The position numbers and the translations under genes were made by a program. Shown here in pieces: positions 14,220 through 25,168 of a DNA stretch of 64,000 nt; position 1 is the first letter of the stretch, and every line of letters starts with the position of its first letter. Below the pieces are notes generated by a model. That model worked only from the letters and a program-made list of their open reading frames with translations. It searched no databases and was not told where the DNA came from. The DNA is from Planctomycetota bacterium (GTDB lineage Bacteria; Planctomycetota; Phycisphaerae; Phycisphaerales; UBA1924). The DNA lies in NCBI GenBank assembly GCA_018968885.1, contig JAGWZK010000007.1, positions 1 through 64,000 of the forward strand, given 5' to 3'.

Positions 14220-15182
14220 ATGATGATACTCTTGCCATTGCTCGGCGTATGGGCGTGCTTCATGGTGGTGCTCTGGGCCAAGCGCGGCGATGGGCGGCGA
14301 GATCTGCGGCGATGCCCGAGGTGCTGGTATTCGATGGATGGGCAGGCGGGGTTGAAGTGTCCGGAATGCGGATATGCAGCGCGGATTGAAAGTGAGTTGT
14401 TTCAGCCGCGGAGCCACAGAGGAGTATTTCGGGCGGGTCTTGTGGTGATGGTGATGACGGCGGCGGCATGGATGTGGATGGTGATTCCGGGAGCGTGGAC
14501 GAATAAGGTGCCGCGATTTGCCTTGCGGATCGCTCTGAACATGGCAGAACCGTATCGAGGAGTGCCGCGGACGCGTACGGAGATTGATCAGAGCGTGCCA
14601 AACAGGCAGTGGATGACTTCAGAGGTGGCTTGGTCGCGAGTGCTGTGGCAGCAGCAGGTGAACAACGTGATGCGGCAGTGGGCGGATGCGGTGATGGAGA
14701 AGAGTGGGCCGATTACCGCTGAGGAGTTGCCACATCTGGTGGAGTTGGCCAACCTGGCGAACGAGAGCTATGTGCAAACTGGAGGTTTGGCGCACGGCGA
14801 GGGGTGGATCTCGGATGTGGTGAAGATGGATGTGGCGCGAGTGCGTGCGAACTCGAGTGATCCGTGGGTGAAGTTGCGGGCCGAATGGGTGCTGAGTGAT
14901 CTGCAGTATGTTGGCGGGGACTATTCGCACCGAATGGATTGGGGAGTGATTCCTGAAGAGGTGCTGCAGATGTCCTTGGCGCACTCGGATACAAACGTGC
15001 GGCTGTATGGTGTAGATCGAGTTGGGGTTGCCGCACGATTAAAGCTGATGACTCCGCGCAAGACGCAGTTTCCGCAGGTGGGTGACTTGGTGCGGCAGAT
15101 GGCGGCGAGTGACCCGGATCTGGGAGTGCGCAGGCGGGCCAAGGATGTGGTGTCGTACATGGAGGCGTTCAACATCAAATGA
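14220..15182 (+). CDS. Zinc-ribbon membrane protein with HEAT-like C-terminus, unknown function
   Basis: 320 residues. A membrane segment at about 3-19 is followed by a cytoplasm-facing zinc ribbon RCPRCWYSMDG...LKCPECGY (two CxxC knuckles), then a second membrane helix (about 77-93, VVMVMTAAAWMWMVIPG). The remaining 220 residues are soluble and helical, ending in HEAT-like units (VRLYGVDRVGVAARL, LGVRRRAKDVVSYME). Planctomycete genomes carry many such CPxC...CPECG membrane proteins of unknown role. It starts 6 bp after the M24 peptidase stop, and its TGA overlaps the next start (ATGA), suggesting an operon running into the amino-sugar genes. Confidence 0.75.
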   Translation: MMILLPLLGVWACFMVVLWAKRGDGRRDLRRCPRCWYSMDGQAGLKCPECGYAARIESELFQPRSHRGVFRAGLVVMVMTAAAWMWMVIPGAWTNKVPRFALRIALNMAEPYRGVPRTRTEIDQSVPNRQWMTSEVAWSRVLWQQQVNNVMRQWADAVMEKSGPITAEELPHLVELANLANESYVQTGGLAHGEGWISDVVKMDVARVRANSSDPWVKLRAEWVLSDLQYVGGDYSHRMDWGVIPEEVLQMSLAHSDTNVRLYGVDRVGVAARLKLMTPRKTQFPQVGDLVRQMAASDPDLGVRRRAKDVVSYMEAFNIK

Positions 15183-16948
15183 AGAGCATGCGGCGACATC
15201 CTGATGAAGAGCCGGTTTTGTTTCCGAGGCCACGAAGTGTGACGCGCCAGAGTGGTGTGTTTCATATTGGAACGAACGGACTCGCACTCGCGGTCAAGGT
15301 GCGCCATGGTGAGATGGATGGCCCAGGCCACTACAGCATTCATGTCAACGACTTGGTGGAGATCACGTGCGCGGATGCCGAAGGAGAACGCGCAGCGCGG
15401 ACGACTCTGCGTCAATTGCACGTGCAGTATGGCCAAACATGGCCTCGCCTGGAGATTTATGATGGGCCGGAGTTCGCAACGCGAGGCGTGATGCTGGATG
15501 TGTCGCGGTGCCGCGTGCCGACGATGCGGGAGTTTTTCGAGATCATCGATCTGCTGGCATTGTTGAAATTCAATCACCTGCAGTTGTACACCGAGCACGC
15601 CTTTGCGTATTTCGGGCATGAGGAGGCGTGGCGGGGCTGGTCGCCACTCACGCCGAGTGAGATTCAGCGATTGGATGCATATTGCCGGGGCAAAGGGATG
15701 GCACTGGCAGCGAACCAGAACTGCTTTGGGCATCTGGCGCATTGGCTGAAGATGCCCAAGTATCAGCATCTTGCGGAGACGCATGGGGAATGGATGTTTG
15801 ATGTGTGGCCACGGTCGGGGCCGTTTTCGCTGTGCCCGACGGATGAGAAATCCGTGGACTTCGTGCGTGATCTACTCACGCAATTGTGCCCCAATTTTTC
15901 GAGCCCGATTGTCAACATCGGATGCGATGAGACGTATGACGTGGGATTTGGTCGCTCGCACGAAGCGGTGCAGACGCGGGGGCGGCACGCGGTGTACGCG
16001 GAGTTTGTGTCCAAGGTCTGTGACATCACGCGCGAACTGAATCGACGACCGGCGTTCTGGGCGGATATCGCGTTGCATGACCCCGAAACGCTGGACCAAC
16101 TGCCGCAAGATCTGATTGCATTGTGCTGGGGGTACGAGCCGGATTCACAGTTTTACGAATGGGCGAAGGAGTGTAACAGCCGCGGCATGGAGACCTGGGT
16201 GTGCCCGGGGACGAGTTCGTGGTGCAGCGTCACGGGACGGAGTGCGGAGTCTCTTGAGAACATCCGCCGCGCTTCCGTGCCGGATATCGAAGCCGTCGCG
16301 GAGGGATTTCTCATCACTGACTGGGGAGATCGCGGCCATCATCAGACGTGGCCGATTTCGCTGTTGGGAATTGCGCGAGCGGCCCAGGCGGCGTGGAATC
16401 CAGATTCACTCCTTCATCCGGATTTAGATGCCGCGATTTCGCAGTGGGCATATGGGGATGCGAGTGGAGAGATCGCAGGATTGGTGCATGAGATCGGGGA
16501 TATTGACTACCCGATTCGGCAGATTGCGGGGAAGTTGACGCGGCCGAATGATCCGAAACCCGCGCCACGACTGTTGAATCAATCTGCACTCTTTGCAGAC
16601 TTGTGGAAGCCGTGGGATCAGGGAGTGGAGATTGCGCCGCTGGCGATGTGGCATGAGGCGGCTGAGCGGTTGCACGACTGCCGCGTAAAGCTGGGGAAGA
16701 GCAACGCATCGGCATTGATTCGCGATGAAGTCGGGCACACGCTGGATTGTGCAACGCTGGCGCTGACCCGGGCGATGTTGCGGCGAAAGCCGAACGCGAC
16801 ATCGGGCGAGATCACGGCACTGGAGCCGCAACTTCAGCACATCATGCAGGAACACGCGCGGCTGTGGCCGATTCGATCCCGCTCGGGGGGATTGGAGCAA
16901 TCTCTGGAGTTCTATCGCACGATCGGAAAGACGCTGGTGCCGCGATGA
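15179..16948 (+). CDS. Family 20-like beta-N-acetylhexosaminidase, cytoplasmic
   Basis: 589 residues without a signal peptide. Residues about 1-95 match the small alpha/beta domain that precedes GH20 barrels. The TIM barrel begins with ATRGVMLDVSRCRVPT (about 100-115) and carries the catalytic pair Asp250-Glu251 in NIGCDETYDVG, the acid/base Glu and the Asp that orients the substrate N-acetyl group. The C-terminal 180 residues are helical. It overlaps the upstream gene by 4 bp and anmK downstream by 4 bp. That context suggests it releases GlcNAc from cell-wall (GlcNAc-anhydroMurNAc) sugars in the cytosol, the job NagZ (GH3) does in other bacteria. That role is inference; chitin fragments are an alternative substrate. 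Confidence 0.8.
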   Translation: MKSMRRHPDEEPVLFPRPRSVTRQSGVFHIGTNGLALAVKVRHGEMDGPGHYSIHVNDLVEITCADAEGERAARTTLRQLHVQYGQTWPRLEIYDGPEFATRGVMLDVSRCRVPTMREFFEIIDLLALLKFNHLQLYTEHAFAYFGHEEAWRGWSPLTPSEIQRLDAYCRGKGMALAANQNCFGHLAHWLKMPKYQHLAETHGEWMFDVWPRSGPFSLCPTDEKSVDFVRDLLTQLCPNFSSPIVNIGCDETYDVGFGRSHEAVQTRGRHAVYAEFVSKVCDITRELNRRPAFWADIALHDPETLDQLPQDLIALCWGYEPDSQFYEWAKECNSRGMETWVCPGTSSWCSVTGRSAESLENIRRASVPDIEAVAEGFLITDWGDRGHHQTWPISLLGIARAAQAAWNPDSLLHPDLDAAISQWAYGDASGEIAGLVHEIGDIDYPIRQIAGKLTRPNDPKPAPRLLNQSALFADLWKPWDQGVEIAPLAMWHEAAERLHDCRVKLGKSNASALIRDEVGHTLDCATLALTRAMLRRKPNATSGEITALEPQLQHIMQEHARLWPIRSRSGGLEQSLEFYRTIGKTLVPR

Positions 16949-18078
16949 ATGCCGAACCTAGTGCGGAGGGAAACAGGACGCGGTTGGTGGTGGGTTGCAT
17001 GAGTGGGACGAGTGTGGATGGATTGGATGCGGCGCTTGTGGAGGTTTCCGGGACTGGGTTGATGATGAAGGCGCGAGTGCTGCACACGGCATCGCGGACG
17101 CTCGGGACGCTGGGGCCGATTTTGCGGAAGATGGTGGATCAGCACCTGATGAGCGCTGGGGAGATGGCGCGGGCGATGACGGAGTTCTCGCTGCTGCATA
17201 TTGCCGCGATTCGTGAGGCGTGCGGCGGGAAGAATCCGGATCTGATCTGTGTGCATGGGCAGACAGTGTTTCATGCTCCCCCACATTCGTGGCAGATGCT
17301 GCAACCGTCACCGATCGCGCGGGTGTTTGGGTGTCCGGTGGTGTATGACTTGCGGGCGGCGGATATCGCGGCGGGGGGCCAAGGGGCACCGATCACGCCG
17401 CTGGCGGACTTGGTGCTGTTTGGGGATGAGAAGCGGCGGCGGGGCGTGGTGAACCTGGGTGGATTCTGCAATGTGACGCTGCTGCCGCGGAGTGAGGGGA
17501 GTTTGGAGAGTCAGCGCGATGGGATTGTGGCGCGGGATGTGTGCGCGTGTAATCATGTGCTGGATTTGATCGCGAGAGAGCGTTTTGGCGTGCCGTTCGA
17601 TGAGCAGGGGTCGGCGGCGGCGGGTGCGAATCAGATTGACGGTGAGGCGTTGGATGGGTTGCGGGCTCTGGTGCAGGGGCAGGCCAAGAGTGGGCGTTCG
17701 CTGGGGACGGGGGATGAGTTGTTTGCGTGGTTGCAGAAGTGCTCGGGCGTGCCGGGAAACGTGCTGGCACGGACGGCGTGCATGGCGATTGCGGAGACGA
17801 TTCTGGAGGTGTGCGGCGAAGTGGAAGTGCTGATCCTGGCTGGGGGAGGGACACGGAATGAGGCGCTGGTCGGGTTTGTGAGGGAAGGGGCACGAGATCG
17901 GGAGCAGGTGGTGCTGCTGTCGAGCGATGTGGGGATTGATGTCTCGGCGCGAGAGTCGGCGTGCTTTGCGGTGCTGGGAGCGTTGTGCCAGGATGGAGTG
18001 CCGATCACGCTGCCGCAGGTGACGGGGGTGAAAGTGGCGCCGGTGAGTGGGAGTTGGGTGGGGAGAGAGAGGCAATAG
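16945..18078 (+). CDS. anmK: Anhydro-N-acetylmuramic acid kinase
   Basis: 377 residues, about the length of E. coli AnmK, which phosphorylates and opens 1,6-anhydroMurNAc to give MurNAc-6-phosphate in the cytosol. The ATP-binding signature GCMSGTSVDGLDAALVEV is at the N-terminus, followed by ICVHGQTVFHAPP and a GGGTRNEAL phosphate motif near the C-terminus. The start at 16945 is chosen because it overlaps the GH20 stop (ATGA) and the conserved region begins about 16 residues later. Its product is the substrate of MurQ, encoded just downstream. Confidence 0.95.
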   Translation: MNAEPSAEGNRTRLVVGCMSGTSVDGLDAALVEVSGTGLMMKARVLHTASRTLGTLGPILRKMVDQHLMSAGEMARAMTEFSLLHIAAIREACGGKNPDLICVHGQTVFHAPPHSWQMLQPSPIARVFGCPVVYDLRAADIAAGGQGAPITPLADLVLFGDEKRRRGVVNLGGFCNVTLLPRSEGSLESQRDGIVARDVCACNHVLDLIARERFGVPFDEQGSAAAGANQIDGEALDGLRALVQGQAKSGRSLGTGDELFAWLQKCSGVPGNVLARTACMAIAETILEVCGEVEVLILAGGGTRNEALVGFVREGARDREQVVLLSSDVGIDVSARESACFAVLGALCQDGVPITLPQVTGVKVAPVSGSWVGRERQ

Positions 18079-18148
18079 GCACTTGGCACGAGGCATGAGA
18101 GGAAGGCAAATACCAAAGGCCAGATAGCCAAGAGAAAGGCAAAGGAAA
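18079..18148. repeat. Degenerate heptanucleotide repeat after anmK
   Basis: Ten successive 7-bp frames starting right after the anmK stop. They include GCACTTG, GCACGAG, GCATGAG, then CAAATAC, CAAAGGC, CAGATAG, CCAAGAG. Similarity between adjacent units holds only at a 7-bp shift. Confidence 0.55.
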
Positions 18149-18150
18149 GC

Positions 18151-18172
18151 ACACCGGTCGGGAGACCGGTGT
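18151..18172. repeat. REP-like hairpin
   Basis: Perfect 9-bp stem ACACCGGTC and GACCGGTGT with a GGGA loop, between anmK and murQ. There is no T-run after it on either strand. It may be a dispersed palindromic element or a message-processing site rather than a terminator. Confidence 0.65.
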
Positions 18173-18207
18173 CACCCAAGCCAGGAAACACCAAAGCAGG
18201 TCATTCC

Positions 18208-18213
18208 TACCGT
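18208..18213 (+). promoter_or_regulatory. Candidate -10 box (TACCGT) of leaderless murQ
   Basis: TACCGT ends 7 nt before the murQ ATG and no Shine-Dalgarno is present. This gives murQ a promoter independent of anmK. Confidence 0.45.
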
Positions 18214-18220
18214 TTGCAGC

Positions 18221-19123
18221 ATGTTGCCACCTGATCGATCACACATTCTGACCGAGATGCGGAACCCGATGAGCGCGGGGATTCATCGGCAGACGGTGGA
18301 TGAGATTCTGCGGACGATTCAGCAGGCGGATCGTGAAGTGCTGGATGCGGTGGCGGCGGCAGGACCAGCGGTTGCGAGGTTTGTGACGGCGGTGGAAGAG
18401 ACGTTTATCGCCGGAGGGAGGCTGATTTATCTGGGGGCTGGGACGAGTGGGCGGCTGGGCGTGCTGGATGCTTCTGAGATTCCACCGACGTTTCAACTGC
18501 CTCCGGGGCGGATCATTGGGATCATCGCGGGAGGTGATGGGGCGCTGCGGGTCTCGAGTGAGGGGAAAGAAGACGACCCGCGTGGGGCGGTGGAGGCATT
18601 GAGCGCGTTGGGGCTGTCGCGGATGGACACGGTGCTGGGGATCGCGGCGGGAGGAACCACGCCTTATGTACTGGGGGCGCTGGCGTTTGCCAAATCGATT
18701 GCGAATCCGCCATTGACGGGGATGCTGTCGTGTGCCCCGATATCCACCCCCCCCCACTGCGATCATCTGATCGTGGCGGCGACGGGGCCGGAGGTGGTGA
18801 CGGGCTCGACGCGCATGAAAGCGGGGACGGCGACGAAGCTGATTCTGAATCAGATTTCGACAACGTTGATGATTCGATCCGGGCGGGTGTATGAAAACCT
18901 GATGGTGGATGTGAAGGCAACGAATGAGAAGTTGCGAGATCGAGCGGCGCGGATTGTCGGCATACTGACGGGTCTGGATCGCGGGGCGGCGCTGGCGAAG
19001 GTGGACGAGGCCGGGGGGAGTGTGAAATTGGCGGTGGTGATGGCACGAAAGGGCGTGTCGGCTGTGGAGGCACAGACGCTCTTGAATCATGCGGGTGGGC
19101 ATCTGTACAAGATTCTGGGGTGA
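18221..19123 (+). CDS. murQ: N-acetylmuramic acid 6-phosphate etherase
   Basis: 300-residue SIS-domain protein that removes D-lactate from MurNAc-6-phosphate to give GlcNAc-6-phosphate. The sugar-phosphate loop LGAGTSGRLGVLDASE is at 71-86, with the catalytic Glu in the ASEIPPTF segment. The second family motif GSTRMKAGTATKLILNQIST and the C-terminal AKVDEAGGSVKLAVV helix are both intact. It completes the GH20-AnmK-MurQ route from anhydro-muropeptide sugar to GlcNAc-6-phosphate. The gene is 142 bp after anmK, with a heptamer repeat and a hairpin between them, and has its own -10-like box. Confidence 0.96.
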   Translation: MLPPDRSHILTEMRNPMSAGIHRQTVDEILRTIQQADREVLDAVAAAGPAVARFVTAVEETFIAGGRLIYLGAGTSGRLGVLDASEIPPTFQLPPGRIIGIIAGGDGALRVSSEGKEDDPRGAVEALSALGLSRMDTVLGIAAGGTTPYVLGALAFAKSIANPPLTGMLSCAPISTPPHCDHLIVAATGPEVVTGSTRMKAGTATKLILNQISTTLMIRSGRVYENLMVDVKATNEKLRDRAARIVGILTGLDRGAALAKVDEAGGSVKLAVVMARKGVSAVEAQTLLNHAGGHLYKILG

Positions 19124-19127
19124 GGCG

Positions 19128-19133
19128 TACCCT
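19128..19133 (+). promoter_or_regulatory. Candidate -10 box (TACCCT) before the DapB-like dehydrogenase
   Basis: TACCCT ends 7 nt before the ATG at 19141 and starts 4 bp after the murQ stop. There is no Shine-Dalgarno sequence. It would allow leaderless expression separate from murQ. Confidence 0.45.
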
Positions 19134-19140
19134 TGGGCCC

Positions 19141-20139
19141 ATGCATCGCATCATTCATATCGGCGTCGGCCCTCTGGGACAACGGATCATCGGCGAACTG
19201 ACGGAGCGGAAGCTGGCGCGTGTCGTCGCTGCGGTGGATTCCTCAAGTGAACTGGCGGGAAAGCCGTTGGCAAGGTTTGTGCCCCAGTTTGATGAGGCAT
19301 TGACGATTGCGCCATCGCTGGAAGCGGTGAGTGACTGGTCGCGATTTGATGCGGCGATGGTGACGACATCGAGTGATCTGGTCGCGTGCGCGGATACGTT
19401 TCGAGCGTTGTTGCGCCAAGGCAAGGCTGTGGTGAGCACGTGCGAGGAACTGGTGTATCCGTGGCTGCGGCACGTGGGTCTGGCGGAAGAACTGGATGCA
19501 CTGGCCAAGCGGCACGGGGGGCGACTGCTGGGAACGGGTGTTAATCCGGGTTTCCTGATGGATCATCTGCCGAGCGTGCTGACGGCGGTGTGCAAGAACG
19601 TGCGGACGATCAAGTGCCTCCGGATTCAGGACGCATCGAGCCGGCGGGTGCCGTTCCAGAAGAAAATCGGGGCGGGAATCACCGAAGCCGAATTCGCCAA
19701 GCGCGTGAAGGATGGGACGCTGAGGCACGTGGGGCTTGGTGAATCCCTGCACTTTATTGCTCACTATGTGGGGCTGAAGATTGAACGGTGGGAAGAGGAC
19801 ATTGCTCCGGTGCTGGCGAGCCGCGATCTGAATTGTGCGATCGGGCCGATTGCCAAGGGGACGCCGAGTGGCGTGCGGCAGACAGCGCGAGGATATTTTG
19901 ACGAGCACACGGTGATTGAACTGGAGTTTCAGGCGGCGATCGGGCAGAGTGATCCGCATGACCGGGTGGTGATCGACGCCGATCCGCCGATTGACTGCGT
20001 GATCCATGGGGGAGTGCATGGTGATCTGGCGACGTCGGCGATTGCCTGCAATGCGATCGGGCGGCTGCTCGCCGCGCCACCGGGATTGCACACGATGGCG
20101 AGCATTCCCAGCGTGGTGCACGCGCCCAGCGGGAAGTGA
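19141..20139 (+). CDS. DapB-like NAD(P)-dependent dehydrogenase, substrate unknown
   Basis: 332 residues. An N-terminal Rossmann fold opens HIGVGPLGQRIIGELTERK (a variant of GxGxxG) and continues into the AAVDSSSELAGKPL region typical of dihydrodipicolinate-reductase-like folds. The middle segment GTGVNPGFLMDHLPSVLTAV and the C-terminal domain match the 2,4-diaminopentanoate dehydrogenase/DapB-like family rather than true DapB, whose KHHxxK site I cannot find. It therefore probably oxidises an amino-acid-like substrate, but which one is unknown. The start at 19141 is used because the fold begins there and a -10-like box lies just before it. Confidence 0.75.
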   Translation: MHRIIHIGVGPLGQRIIGELTERKLARVVAAVDSSSELAGKPLARFVPQFDEALTIAPSLEAVSDWSRFDAAMVTTSSDLVACADTFRALLRQGKAVVSTCEELVYPWLRHVGLAEELDALAKRHGGRLLGTGVNPGFLMDHLPSVLTAVCKNVRTIKCLRIQDASSRRVPFQKKIGAGITEAEFAKRVKDGTLRHVGLGESLHFIAHYVGLKIERWEEDIAPVLASRDLNCAIGPIAKGTPSGVRQTARGYFDEHTVIELEFQAAIGQSDPHDRVVIDADPPIDCVIHGGVHGDLATSAIACNAIGRLLAAPPGLHTMASIPSVVHAPSGK

Positions 20140-20162
20140 ACCGTTGATCGGCGGAGAGCCGA

Positions 20163-20168
20163 TATCGT
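20163..20168 (+). promoter_or_regulatory. Candidate -10 box (TATCGT) before the alpha-oxoamine synthase
   Basis: TATCGT ends 6 nt before the ATG at 20175, in a 35-bp intergenic gap with no Shine-Dalgarno. It fits the TANNNT pattern seen before several other genes here. Confidence 0.4.
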
Positions 20169-20174
20169 TGGCGT

Positions 20175-21314
20175 ATGCCACGAGTTCCCAATAGCGAATT
20201 GACTGCGACGAACGCGATTTTCCCCGTGAACGGCTTGCCGCGTAGGGTGTTGAACTTTGCGGGGTGCAATTACTTGGGCTTGGCGCATGAGCCGCGGGTG
20301 CATGCGGCGGCGATTCGCGGCATGGGGCGGTATGGATTGACCACGACGGCAAGCCGCGAAACCACGGGGAATACCGACGCGCACACGGGGCTGGAGAGGG
20401 AACTGGCGGAGTTTTTGGGGATGGATTCGGCGATTCTGACGACGGAGGGGTACACGGCGAATATGGCGTTGTGTGAGGCGTTGGGGCAATCTCACAAAGT
20501 GGCACTCATTGATGAGAAGTCGCATCGTTCGGTGGGGCACGCGGCGGAAGCGAGTGGGATGCGCGTGATGCGGTATCGGCATCGGGATGCGGCGCATGCG
20601 GCGGAGCTGGCGAGGACGGCCGCACGCGAGGTGGGCGCGGATGGGGTGGTGATTCTGACGGATGGGGTGTTTACTGCGGATGGGGTGATTGCGCCACTGC
20701 GGGAATTGGTGAAGGCGCTGCCTGGGGCCGGGTCGGTGCTGGTGGTGGATGATTGCCACGGGTTCTGCGTGCTGGGTCAAAGTGGGCGCGGGACGTGTGA
20801 TCATCTGGGAGTGCGTGACCCACGCATCGTGATCACGACGACGCTTGGGAAGGGATTAGGGTGTTACGGGGGCGTGATCGCGGGAGCGAAGGAAGTGATA
20901 GATCGCGTGCAGCAAGGCGCGCGGATCTATCGAGGAACGACGCCGTGCCCACCACCGCTGATTGAAGCGGCACGCGAGGCGGTGCGGGTGTTGATTGAAC
21001 GGCCGCAATTGTCTAAGAAGTTGCTGGAGCAGGCGGCATACCTGCGTAAGGGGTTGACGCGGTGCGGCGTGAAACTGAATGATGCACCGACGCCGATTCT
21101 GGCGTTTGTGTTGGATAGTGAAACGCAAATGGATGAGGTGAGTGCTGGCTTGCTGCAGCGCGGTGTGTTTGCGCCGGTCATTGAGTATCCGGGGGGCCCG
21201 GCGCAAAGGTACTTTCGCATCACGCTGACGGCGGAACATACGCGCGAGCATCTGGATCAATTGATTGAGGGATTTGCCACGTTGCTGGATGCGAAGACAC
21301 TTGTTGCTGCGTGA
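20175..21314 (+). CDS. Alpha-oxoamine synthase family PLP enzyme (BioF/Kbl/SPT-like)
   Basis: 379-residue fold-type I PLP enzyme. The family joins an acyl-CoA (or acyl-ACP) to an amino acid with loss of CO2. Visible signatures are the glycine-rich entry NFAGCNYLGLAHEPRV, the SRETTGNTDAHTGLERELAE stretch (normally S-R-x-x-x-G-x-x-x-x-H-x-x-LE), the cofactor-binding VVDDCHGFCVLGQSGRG and the Schiff-base Lys in ITTTLGKGLGCYGG. BioF (biotin), Kbl (threonine breakdown) and serine palmitoyltransferase cannot be separated by eye. No bio genes or tdh are adjacent, so a lipid role next to hpnD/hpnE is possible but unproven. It converges on the NagB-like gene with a 25-bp gap. Confidence 0.85.
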   Translation: MPRVPNSELTATNAIFPVNGLPRRVLNFAGCNYLGLAHEPRVHAAAIRGMGRYGLTTTASRETTGNTDAHTGLERELAEFLGMDSAILTTEGYTANMALCEALGQSHKVALIDEKSHRSVGHAAEASGMRVMRYRHRDAAHAAELARTAAREVGADGVVILTDGVFTADGVIAPLRELVKALPGAGSVLVVDDCHGFCVLGQSGRGTCDHLGVRDPRIVITTTLGKGLGCYGGVIAGAKEVIDRVQQGARIYRGTTPCPPPLIEAAREAVRVLIERPQLSKKLLEQAAYLRKGLTRCGVKLNDAPTPILAFVLDSETQMDEVSAGLLQRGVFAPVIEYPGGPAQRYFRITLTAEHTREHLDQLIEGFATLLDAKTLVAA

Positions 21315-21339: not shown

Positions 21340-22779
21340 CTATCTCACTAAACCCAGGATTTCGAGATGGCGATCGGTGCCAAGAACGTTGGCCAAATAG
21401 ACACGTCCCTCGACGTTGATGTGAATCGGAGAATCGGCTCGAGCAGGTGATGATCCGAGCCAGATCCATTGAAATTGCCAGGGCTGCACATCGTGCGCAC
21501 ACAGCACCTGAATGGGTTGCCCGGCGGAGGCCTGCAACGCCGCTTGCGAGAGAAGGCCCGAGACGTCGTCAAAGGCGATGATGTGATCTGGCTTGTGGGT
21601 GTTGATGGCGGATGAGATACCGCTTATCCATGCAGCAAGTGAATCGGCTGAACAATGGGTGTGACGGCGCGATCCCTCGGGATCGCCACGGAGGCACACT
21701 GTGTGTATGGTGACGCCTTGTTCAGTGAAGGAACGCAGCATTCCGGGAAATTCGGTCGACGGTGAATCTGCATCGCGAGAGACGAGGAGAACTCGTCTCC
21801 AGCCACGGGGATTGACGGAGCCTCGGATAGCTCGCGCGGCTATTTCGCGGAGCTCTGGCCGAGGGTCCTGATCTGGCGCCACCCCGGCAAAGGTGGCGAG
21901 GAGTTCTGGACAGGTCTCACAATCCTGATCCTGAATCCCTGAGCCAGCAACCATGGCTTGCGCGATGGTCAAGTCGTCCCATGTTCGATTGGCTTGGGCC
22001 AAGGGACCAACTTGCCATGGAAAGCCGATGTGGGTCAAGAGACCCGCGGCAGCACGATCGGAAATCAGCGTTGCGCTGGCAAGAATGGGGCTGATTGTGT
22101 CACTGGAGTGCCATAAGACACTGGCGACGCTGTCGCTGCCTGTGCCGATGAGAACGCGGTGTGCGGCCTCTTTGAGATTCGTGAGCCCGAGGGTGATCGC
22201 GCGTCGGGGTTGCGAGCCATCAGCGGCAAAGACCAGTCGAGTGCGTGAGTCGCTCCAACCGTTGATTTCGTTCTGGCCGAGTTGGCCACTCTGCCGGGCG
22301 CGGAGGAGGACCAGGTCTATGCCGCCAAGTTCGGCGATGCGATTCTCGATAGAGGAGCAGAAGGCGGGAAGAGACTCTCGCTCGCCTCCTTCCAGCGACC
22401 AGATGTTGGCACCGCAGATGTCGGTGCGGGTCTGCAGGAAGTGGCGGAGGTGGGCAGACTGGCTCATCACGCCGGATGGCGACGGCCACCAATCCCAGAC
22501 GGGGATAGCGGCGACATTGGCGAGGGAGAGGGTGCTGGCATTCACGCGGGATGCCAATTCGTCGAGGACCAACGTGACGGCATCAGGGATGTCGGAGGGA
22601 GAGGAAATGTCGAAAGCCAGAAGGGCAAGCCGCCCCTCGGCGGCGCGGCGGCGAATGACCGCCTGAATCTGGTCGGCAGCGTGTGCCGCGGCTTGGGTGG
22701 CAAAGGGAAAAACCTGCACGCGAGATTGGTTGGTGTTGGACACTGCGGGGTGATCGTTGGCAGGGTGGGCAGAGGGCAT
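21340..22779 (-). CDS. Catalytically degenerate NagB-LmbE-like fusion protein
   Basis: 479 residues. Residues about 20-280 follow the glucosamine-6-phosphate deaminase (NagB) fold: GGIDLVLLRARQSGQLGQNE, SDSRTRL, RRAITLGLTNLKEA and PILASATLISD align with conserved NagB blocks. However, the active-site DGHIAFNE becomes SGQLGQNE (164-171), losing the catalytic Asp and His. Residues about 325-479 resemble the LmbE/PIG-L deacetylase domain fused to NagB in some bacteria, but the zinc-binding HPDD is replaced by RDADS (335-339). Both halves therefore look non-catalytic. The start at 22779 is chosen where family similarity begins; the open frame upstream runs antisense to hpnD. A ligand-binding or regulatory role is a guess. 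Confidence 0.75.
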   Translation of the reverse strand: MPSAHPANDHPAVSNTNQSRVQVFPFATQAAAHAADQIQAVIRRRAAEGRLALLAFDISSPSDIPDAVTLVLDELASRVNASTLSLANVAAIPVWDWWPSPSGVMSQSAHLRHFLQTRTDICGANIWSLEGGERESLPAFCSSIENRIAELGGIDLVLLRARQSGQLGQNEINGWSDSRTRLVFAADGSQPRRAITLGLTNLKEAAHRVLIGTGSDSVASVLWHSSDTISPILASATLISDRAAAGLLTHIGFPWQVGPLAQANRTWDDLTIAQAMVAGSGIQDQDCETCPELLATFAGVAPDQDPRPELREIAARAIRGSVNPRGWRRVLLVSRDADSPSTEFPGMLRSFTEQGVTIHTVCLRGDPEGSRRHTHCSADSLAAWISGISSAINTHKPDHIIAFDDVSGLLSQAALQASAGQPIQVLCAHDVQPWQFQWIWLGSSPARADSPIHINVEGRVYLANVLGTDRHLEILGLVR

Positions 22780-22839: not shown

Positions 22840-23757
22840 GTGAAGATGGAGTTGTCGGAAAGGTATTGCCGCCGAATCACGCGCCAAAGAGCGCGGAACT
22901 TTTATCTTGGGTTGATGTTGACGCCCCAGCCCAAGCGGGCGGCGTTGTATGCGGTGTATGCGTGGATGCGGTGCGCGGATGATCTGGCGGATGATTCGCC
23001 TGGGCCGATTACGGGTGGATTGCGCTTGGACGCGTTTGAGCAGCAGACTGCCGCGACACTGGATGCGGCGGGGACGCTGGTGGATACGGATGCGTTGTGG
23101 CCGAGCGTTCAGCAGACGATGCGCGAGTATCCGATTCAGCGGGTGTGGCTGGATGAGGCGCTGGCCGGGTTGCGGGCGGATCAGGGGGGGACGACCATTC
23201 ACACACGGGGGGATCTGGATCGCTATTGCCATGAGGTTGCGGGGACTGTGGGGATGATCTGCACGGCGATCTGGCGGTCGGATGTGCCTCGACATGAGGG
23301 AGAATGGCCAAGGGCTTTGGAGTTTGCGCGAGTGCGGGGATTGGCGTTTCAATTGACGAACATTCTGAGAGATGTTCGCGCGGATGCGGAGTTGCGACCG
23401 GCGAGGTCGTACTTGCCATTGGACTCGTATGTGGAGTTTGGTTTGACTCTTCAGGATCTATTGGCGTGGCGCGATGAGAGGAAGTGCGCAGCGCTCATGG
23501 GATACTGGGTGCAGGAGGCGCGGCGCTTGTATGACGCGACGGCGGAACTGGAGTTGTTGATTCCAGCTGAGTGCAGACGCTCGCTGGTGACGATGACGCG
23601 CTTGTATCGAACGCTGCTGGAGCAGATTGGCGAAGAGCCGCGGTCGGTGGTGTCTCCAGAGCGGGTGCGGGTAGCGACGTGGCGGAAGTTGAGCATACTC
23701 ATGTCGTCGATGCGGACACCTCAATCGGTTAAATCACCAACCCATGCGACTGCCTGA
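22840..23757 (+). CDS. hpnD: Squalene/phytoene synthase family protein (HpnC/HpnD-like)
   Basis: About 305 residues, a head-to-head prenyl synthase. The first aspartate-rich motif is DDLADD in AWMRCADDLADD and the second is NILRDVRAD; together they bind the diphosphate-magnesium clusters of two farnesyl diphosphates. YCRRITRQRARNFYLGLML near the N-terminus and RSYLPLDSY are also typical. Because an HpnE-like gene overlaps its 3' end, the most likely job is making presqualene diphosphate/hydroxysqualene for squalene. Only one synthase is present here, so HpnC and HpnD cannot be told apart with certainty. GTG at 22840 or ATG at 22846 is the start. Confidence 0.85.
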   Translation: MKMELSERYCRRITRQRARNFYLGLMLTPQPKRAALYAVYAWMRCADDLADDSPGPITGGLRLDAFEQQTAATLDAAGTLVDTDALWPSVQQTMREYPIQRVWLDEALAGLRADQGGTTIHTRGDLDRYCHEVAGTVGMICTAIWRSDVPRHEGEWPRALEFARVRGLAFQLTNILRDVRADAELRPARSYLPLDSYVEFGLTLQDLLAWRDERKCAALMGYWVQEARRLYDATAELELLIPAECRRSLVTMTRLYRTLLEQIGEEPRSVVSPERVRVATWRKLSILMSSMRTPQSVKSPTHATA

Positions 23758-25168
23758 GCACCATTCAATCTTGATTCTGGGCGCGGGGCTCGCGGGCCTG
23801 GCGGCGGGTGTGACGTTGGCACGTGAGGGCGTGGCGTGCACGATCTTGGAAACGCGCAAGCACTTGGGGGGTCGCGCGGCGAGCACGATTGACCCGCGCA
23901 GCGGAGAAGAGATTGACAACTGCCAGCATGTGGCGCTGGGGTGTTGCACGCAGTATCTAAGGTTTTTGCACGAGATCGGGTCGCTCAAGCATCTGGAGTG
24001 GACACAGGAGCAACACTGGATTCATGCGGCGATCGGGGCGAGGGAGCATGCAACCCCAAGCGTTTCACGGATTGGCAATGCCCCACTGCCTGCGCCGTTG
24101 CAGGGAGTGCCGTCGCTGTTGGGCGCGAAGTTTCTCTCTTTTCCGGCAAAACTCGCGGCGATTCAACTCGCAACCCAGGTATTGCTGACGGATCGGCGGA
24201 GAATGGCAGACCTCACTTTTTCGCAGTGGCTGCTGCAAGTGGGTGTGGATTCGCCGGAATTGGTTGAACGACTGCTGACGCCGATCATCGTGAGCGCGTG
24301 CAACTGTCTGCCTAAAGAATGTGGTGCGGATGTTGCGTTGCACGTGCTACAGGATGCGATCTTTGCTTTGCCATCAGCGAGCGAGATTGGTGTGAGCAGG
24401 GTGCCACTTTCGGTGCTGTATGAGCCAATCCCGGAAATTCTGGCACGGGCAGGGTCGCAGTTGCACACCGGGGTGAGCGTGCAGGAGTTTGATGAGCGGC
24501 AAGTGACGATTTCCGTAGGCACGACGATGCAAACGGTGACCGCAGATCGGGTGATTTGTGCGTTGCCATTCGAGAGGGTGTTGACATTGGCCTCGGCGGA
24601 ACTCAAGCGTGCGGATCGGCGGTTCGAGGCACTGGCTGACCTGAAACACGGGCCGATCCTGGGTGTGCACCTGAAGTTTGCCGAGCCCGTGTGCCCTCAT
24701 CCGCACGCGGTGCTGGTGGATCGCCCGACGCAATGGGTATTTCGCAAAGATGATGCCGGCAGACATCTGCACTGTGTGATCTCTGGTGCAACCGAGTGGA
24801 TGGAGTTGACGGAAGCGCAAATCGTCGAGCGGGTGTGTGCGGATCTGGTGGCGTGCTTTGGCACTGTTGCCCAGCAAAAGCCGTTGTCGGCGCGGGCGAT
24901 CAAGGAGCGCCGGGCGACGTTTGTACCTTCGCCGAGTTCGTATCGCGCTCGGCCGAGCGTCGAACCAGTGGCAGTCGGGGGTGTGCTGTTGGCGGGGGAT
25001 TACACGCAGACGGGGTGGCCGGCGACGATGGAATCGGCGGTGCGGTCGGGGGCGATGGCTGCGGCGGTGGCAATGGGTCGTGCGCCGGATGCCTTTCTGG
25101 AACCGGCGTTGGGCAGACCTTTACTGACAAGATTCCTGCCGCCATTCCTACAGTCTGACTCACATTGA
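23744..25168 (+). CDS. hpnE: Hydroxysqualene dehydroxylase-like FAD enzyme
   Basis: 474 residues of the amine oxidase/phytoene desaturase superfamily. The N-terminal FAD motif is ILILGAGLAGLAAGVTLA, followed by LETRKHLGGRAAS, where Glu binds the FAD ribose. The C-terminal FAD segment is VGGVLLAGDYTQTGWPATMESA. HpnE removes the hydroxyl from hydroxysqualene to give squalene, completing the FPP-to-squalene route begun by the overlapping upstream gene (14-bp overlap). No squalene-hopene cyclase is in the window, so whether the squalene goes to hopanoids is unknown. Confidence 0.88.
   Translation: MRLPEHHSILILGAGLAGLAAGVTLAREGVACTILETRKHLGGRAASTIDPRSGEEIDNCQHVALGCCTQYLRFLHEIGSLKHLEWTQEQHWIHAAIGAREHATPSVSRIGNAPLPAPLQGVPSLLGAKFLSFPAKLAAIQLATQVLLTDRRRMADLTFSQWLLQVGVDSPELVERLLTPIIVSACNCLPKECGADVALHVLQDAIFALPSASEIGVSRVPLSVLYEPIPEILARAGSQLHTGVSVQEFDERQVTISVGTTMQTVTADRVICALPFERVLTLASAELKRADRRFEALADLKHGPILGVHLKFAEPVCPHPHAVLVDRPTQWVFRKDDAGRHLHCVISGATEWMELTEAQIVERVCADLVACFGTVAQQKPLSARAIKERRATFVPSPSSYRARPSVEPVAVGGVLLAGDYTQTGWPATMESAVRSGAMAAAVAMGRAPDAFLEPALGRPLLTRFLPPFLQSDSH

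Follow-up and report, generated by a model that had tools for sequence, protein, structure and literature searches.

A diverged paralogue of the Phycisphaerales NagB-PIG-L fusion that has lost the deaminase active site

RESULTS

Gene and genomic setting

The window, a stretch of 64,000 nucleotides of a Phycisphaerales (Planctomycetota) contig from a 3.4 Mb draft genome of 92% completeness, contains a minus-strand reading frame at 21340-22779 that starts with ATG and extends for 479 codons to a TAG, with no stop or frameshift along its length. The product, a 479-residue protein that we refer to as P0001, is a diverged paralogue of a NagB fusion protein. Scanning of all six frames confined the NagB profile signal (96.7 bits) to this frame, and the gene is real. 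The neighbouring genes lie on the plus strand and encode a GH20 hexosaminidase, AnmK, MurQ, a 2,4-diaminopentanoate dehydrogenase-like protein and a BioF/KBL-like enzyme (20175-21314), followed by HpnD and HpnE. Spacing is compact, with 25 bp between the 3′ end of the P0001 gene and the convergent BioF/KBL-like gene and 66 bp between its start and the divergent hpnD (ATG at 22846). The open frame, the upstream GH20, anmK and murQ genes on the opposite strand, the divergent hpnD and two sequence motifs, SGQLGQNE (residues 164-171) and RDADS (residues 335-339), all read as the original prediction had described them.

Two further observations concern these neighbours. The order GH20, AnmK, MurQ, diaminopentanoate dehydrogenase-like, BioF/KBL-like (15179-21314) is shared with a second Phycisphaerales genome, G010 (L135:9383-15458), so that the dehydrogenase and the BioF/KBL-like enzyme travel with MurNAc recycling genes in both genomes. 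On the other side, hpnD and hpnE (22846-25168) have no adjoining hpnC, and a weak HpnC/HpnD-like match is located on contig C37; in many relatives, an HpnC-like gene directly precedes hpnD.

The N-terminal half is a NagB domain

Residues 10-277 (21949-22752, minus strand) clearly form a domain of the NagB (glucosamine-6-phosphate deaminase) type. A family profile built from 65 Phycisphaerales NagB-PIG-L (LmbE) fusions scores this region at 98-103 bits, HHalign relates it to the family with a value of 99.8%, and the NCBIfam model PRK02122, which describes a NagB-LmbE fusion subfamily, matches with an E value of 1.7e-22, in agreement with the homology originally proposed. The PRK02122 match is restricted to residues 15-278, and its score of 79.3 bits lies far below the curated cut-off of 384. 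Members of this subfamily (PRK02122/NF002557, 'glucosamine-6-phosphate deaminase-like protein') are colinear with residues 10-277 of P0001 through their NagB domain and a PW..GP...W segment, but they comprise about 660-700 residues compared with 479, and P0001 has neither the active-site residues nor a recognisable PIG-L domain.

An AlphaFold2 model, for which an alignment of active relatives was supplied, is of high confidence across the greater part of residues 20-165 and of moderate confidence from there to residue 275. When superposed on the NagB structures of E. coli (1dea) and B. subtilis (2bkv), residues 16-258 of the model match with a Z score of about 25 and 2.5-3.2 Å over 219-234 residues. 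Since the alignment consists of active relatives, the predicted fold partly mirrors them, and folding from the single sequence, with no alignment of relatives supplied, fails; the NagB fold of P0001 is therefore supported by the model, not independently shown.

Loss of the deaminase active site

To place the substitutions, residues of P0001 were mapped to E. coli NagB numbering and compared with the E. coli and B. subtilis enzymes. At the phosphate-binding loop, which reads TGGT or TGST in NagB (positions 41-44), P0001 has ISS and an insertion; residues 56-64 (22588-22614, minus strand) correspond to D-I-S-S and part of this 6-residue insertion. The D72-E73-Y74 site is occupied by W95, D96 and W97 (22489-22497, minus strand), with loss of Asp72. 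In the SGQLGQNE segment (22267-22290, minus strand), which aligns with TGH(I/V)GFNE in the fusion family, H143 is replaced by Q166 and F146 by Q169. The phosphate-binding lysine, K208, is replaced by S217 (22129-22131, minus strand), and the active-site lid lacks 13 residues at a junction formed by residues 183-185 (22225-22233, minus strand), so that the segment bearing residue 172 is gone. What P0001 still shares with the 1dea and 2bkv enzymes at these sites comprises N147 (N170), E148 (E171) and the SRTR segment with R156, T157 and R158, whereas D72, H143, K208, the phosphate loop and the lid, all present in those enzymes, are missing.

The 65 fusions keep the family active site. H143, N147, E148 and K208 are retained in all 65, F146 in 64 or 65 of them, and D72, E73 and Y74 in 64, the remaining sequence being truncated at that site; the PHPDD motif of the PIG-L half is likewise present in 65/65. 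A separate feature of the intact family (L030/G000:C50:8694-9521 and 64 relatives) is an Asp at the position of the lid residue Arg172 in every member.

The original prediction had taken DGHIAFNE as the catalytic motif that was lost. The exchanges of His and Phe for Gln are real, but DGHIAFNE is the E. coli form: at the position of E. coli Asp141 the fusions have Thr (64/65) or, once, Ser, and Asn stands there in B. subtilis NagB. Ser164 of P0001 thus does not represent the loss of a catalytic Asp. Simulations of Streptococcus mutans NagB identify Ser37, Thr38, His130, Gly132 and Lys194 as the residues that hold the substrate, and removal of Lys194 in them eliminates nearly all of the binding energy (PMC8369159). 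Taken with the residue losses in P0001, these simulations lead us to expect neither deamination nor ordinary GlcN6P binding from this protein.

The C-terminal region

The remainder of the protein, residues 278-479 (21340-21948 including the stop codon, minus strand), is colinear with the PIG-L/LmbE deacetylase domain (PF02585) of the fusions, with similarity that does not reach significance, and the LmbE-like domain originally assigned to it is not confirmed. No Pfam or NCBIfam model matches the region. In HMMER, the PIG-L profile of the family scores about -2 to -3 bits, values that shuffled sequences equal, and the best window in sub-profile scans is equalled by 454 of 1000 shuffles. HHalign pairs WRRVLLVSRDADSPSTEFPGMLRSFTEQGVTIHTVC with the first strand-helix-strand of PIG-L, which places RDADS (residues 335-339; 21763-21777) on PHPDD, at the colinear place, with a score of 23.1 that 3 of 200 shuffles reach and that is surpassed by segments of the unrelated GH20 protein encoded in the same window. 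This single weak and non-significant match is what links the region to PIG-L; in its insecure register, RDADS stands in place of the HPDD zinc ligands. The segment that carries the distal His of the second zinc site, SDPHGTH, was not found in P0001, in a part where the alignment is also insecure. The region is modelled mostly with pLDDT below 50 (AlphaFold2), and we assign it no fold. No LmbE/PIG-L signal is present in the other reading frames, which excludes a simple frameshift of PIG-L. Because the best match falls at the colinear place, we would most naturally take the region to be a degraded PIG-L domain. The proposal that both active sites have been lost thus holds for NagB, by its residue losses, but not securely for LmbE, since the assignment of that domain is statistically insecure.

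Orthologues and the intact paralogue

Searches with P0001 covered 61 relatives together with genomes from the family (163), order (400) and class (397), amounting to about 690 distinct genomes, in addition to a collection of genome contigs (genome_contigs). The source genome is the sole representative of its genus in this set. No orthologue was found in any of them; the matches were active fusions or plain NagB proteins, up to about 40% identical. Eight short or partial matches (G490, G417, G409, G353, G410, G438, G248 and G608) were rejected as orthologues, as they are ordinary NagB proteins or fusions with intact motifs, some of them cut by a contig end. Nor does synteny reveal a hidden orthologue beside any of 15 relatives of the BioF/KBL-like gene, of which five were also inspected by eye. 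The branch leading to P0001 reaches the length limit of the tree program, and the tree does not settle its placement. No paper treating the NagB-PIG-L fusions, or describing a NagB pseudoenzyme, turned up in our literature search.

The same genome carries an intact fusion copy, with Pfam Glucosamine_iso and PIG-L domains, on a different contig (G000:C50) in the vicinity of genes encoding an esterase, a GFO/IDH/MocA-type oxidoreductase and a disaccharide hydrolase; its nearest named relatives are from Phycisphaerales (Planctomycetota) MAGs. Because the source genome yielded no NagA match that passes its cut-off, this fusion of a deacetylase with a deaminase may cover both the NagA and the NagB steps. 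Fourteen neighbourhoods around intact fusions, extending to as much as 20 kb, showed no AnmK or MurQ homologue. A connection of P0001 with muropeptide sugars, as originally suggested from its location, consequently finds little support in the neighbourhood: the gene is on the opposite strand, it is missing beside the 15 BioF/KBL-like relatives, including that of G010, where the five plus-strand genes occur in the same order, and the intact fusions in the 14 neighbourhoods are situated away from anmK and murQ.

Selection on the reading frame

The frame has remained open despite several insertions and deletions. In Markov sequences of the same dinucleotide composition, a stretch of 479 codons contains 8.4 stops on average, and 1 of 2000 such sequences is open; simulated unconstrained drift of the intact paralogue to 30% identity introduces about 10 stops, with none of 300 runs remaining open. 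Since drift would leave about 10 stops, selection has acted on the P0001 frame over much of its divergence. Among 87 columns that are hydrophobic in the family, 65 are hydrophobic in P0001, compared with a background of 45% (0/5000 shuffles). Conserved polar and hydrophobic residues are retained at similar rates (18/40 and 20/52, respectively), so a pattern of selection for the fold only is not clear.

Strong positive plus-strand GC skew extends across 4001-48000 independently of gene direction, and misleads codon-usage tests trained on genes of a single strand; given this regional skew, minus-strand genes of the window served as the reference for the codon test. With this reference, the P0001 frame has the highest codon score of its six frames. 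Codon bias is normal in the NagB half (0.24 bits, median 0.32) and at the floor of local genes in the C-terminal region (0.05), a weakness that makes recent decay possible.

DISCUSSION

Most likely, P0001 is a folded protein without enzymatic activity, or was one until recently. On balance, we consider it probable that it represents a second copy of the NagB-PIG-L fusion enzyme of Phycisphaerales, lineage-specific, fast-diverging and catalytically dead, in which the NagB fold and the frame have been kept and which acts, if at all, through that fold. In this copy the catalytic Asp and His are gone, as are the phosphate loop, the lysine that binds phosphate and the lid, while the PIG-L half would have been shortened or replaced, leaving P0001 about 200 residues shorter overall. 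The gene would still make a folded protein, working neither by chemistry nor by the usual binding of GlcN6P, and any action would be by protein-protein contact via the NagB fold, for example as an inactive companion of the intact enzyme. The originally proposed selection for a non-enzymatic role is likely to have applied for a phase of this history, as deaminase chemistry is lost and the frame is open beyond the expectation from drift.

The main rival is late decay of a gene whose frame was selected for most of its history and which was released so recently that no stop has yet appeared. The extreme length of its branch, which the tree program could not extend further, the large internal deletions, the C-terminal region with its weak codon bias and lack of a recognisable domain, and the occurrence of an orthologue in none of about 690 genomes would all fit such a course. 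However, the frame has neither stop nor frameshift and no LmbE signal is displaced into other frames, the codon bias of the NagB half is normal and the gene remains tightly spaced between its neighbours; we therefore regard decay as possible but rather unlikely.

Catalytically dead paralogues are common. The most interesting possibility under the preferred reading of P0001 as a dead second copy is that the NagB fold has been co-opted as a partner that regulates the intact NagB-PIG-L enzyme, in the manner of a prozyme, in amino-sugar recycling, which at present we would call a speculative and improbable role.

Regulators of the SorC, DeoR and CggR type use a NagB-like fold for effector binding. 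The original prediction offered a sugar-phosphate sensor as a possible role, and non-enzymatic NagB-like folds do act as sensors elsewhere; the P0001 model has a distant likeness to the CggR, SorC and DeoR effector domains (Z 11-14), and Glu148 and the SRTR segment are kept. However, P0001 has no recognisable DNA-binding or signalling domain, and the phosphate-holding loop 41-44, K208 and the lid have all been lost, where loss of Lys194 abolishes nearly all binding energy in the S. mutans simulations (PMC8369159). Chiefly because the phosphate-binding residues are gone, a sensor of this type is very unlikely. About equally unlikely is that P0001 is an enzyme whose active site has been rebuilt in another form; E171, N170 and R181 of the old pocket and the new W95-D96-W97 cluster next to it might be enlisted for such a site, but the lid is gone.

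As a singleton in one draft genome, P0001, read as the dead second copy, is mostly cautionary, in that a fold persists after both chemistry and ligand site have gone. A dead NagB-PIG-L paralogue in a genome that also has an intact copy would nevertheless be a simple test case for a dead copy that regulates its active twin.
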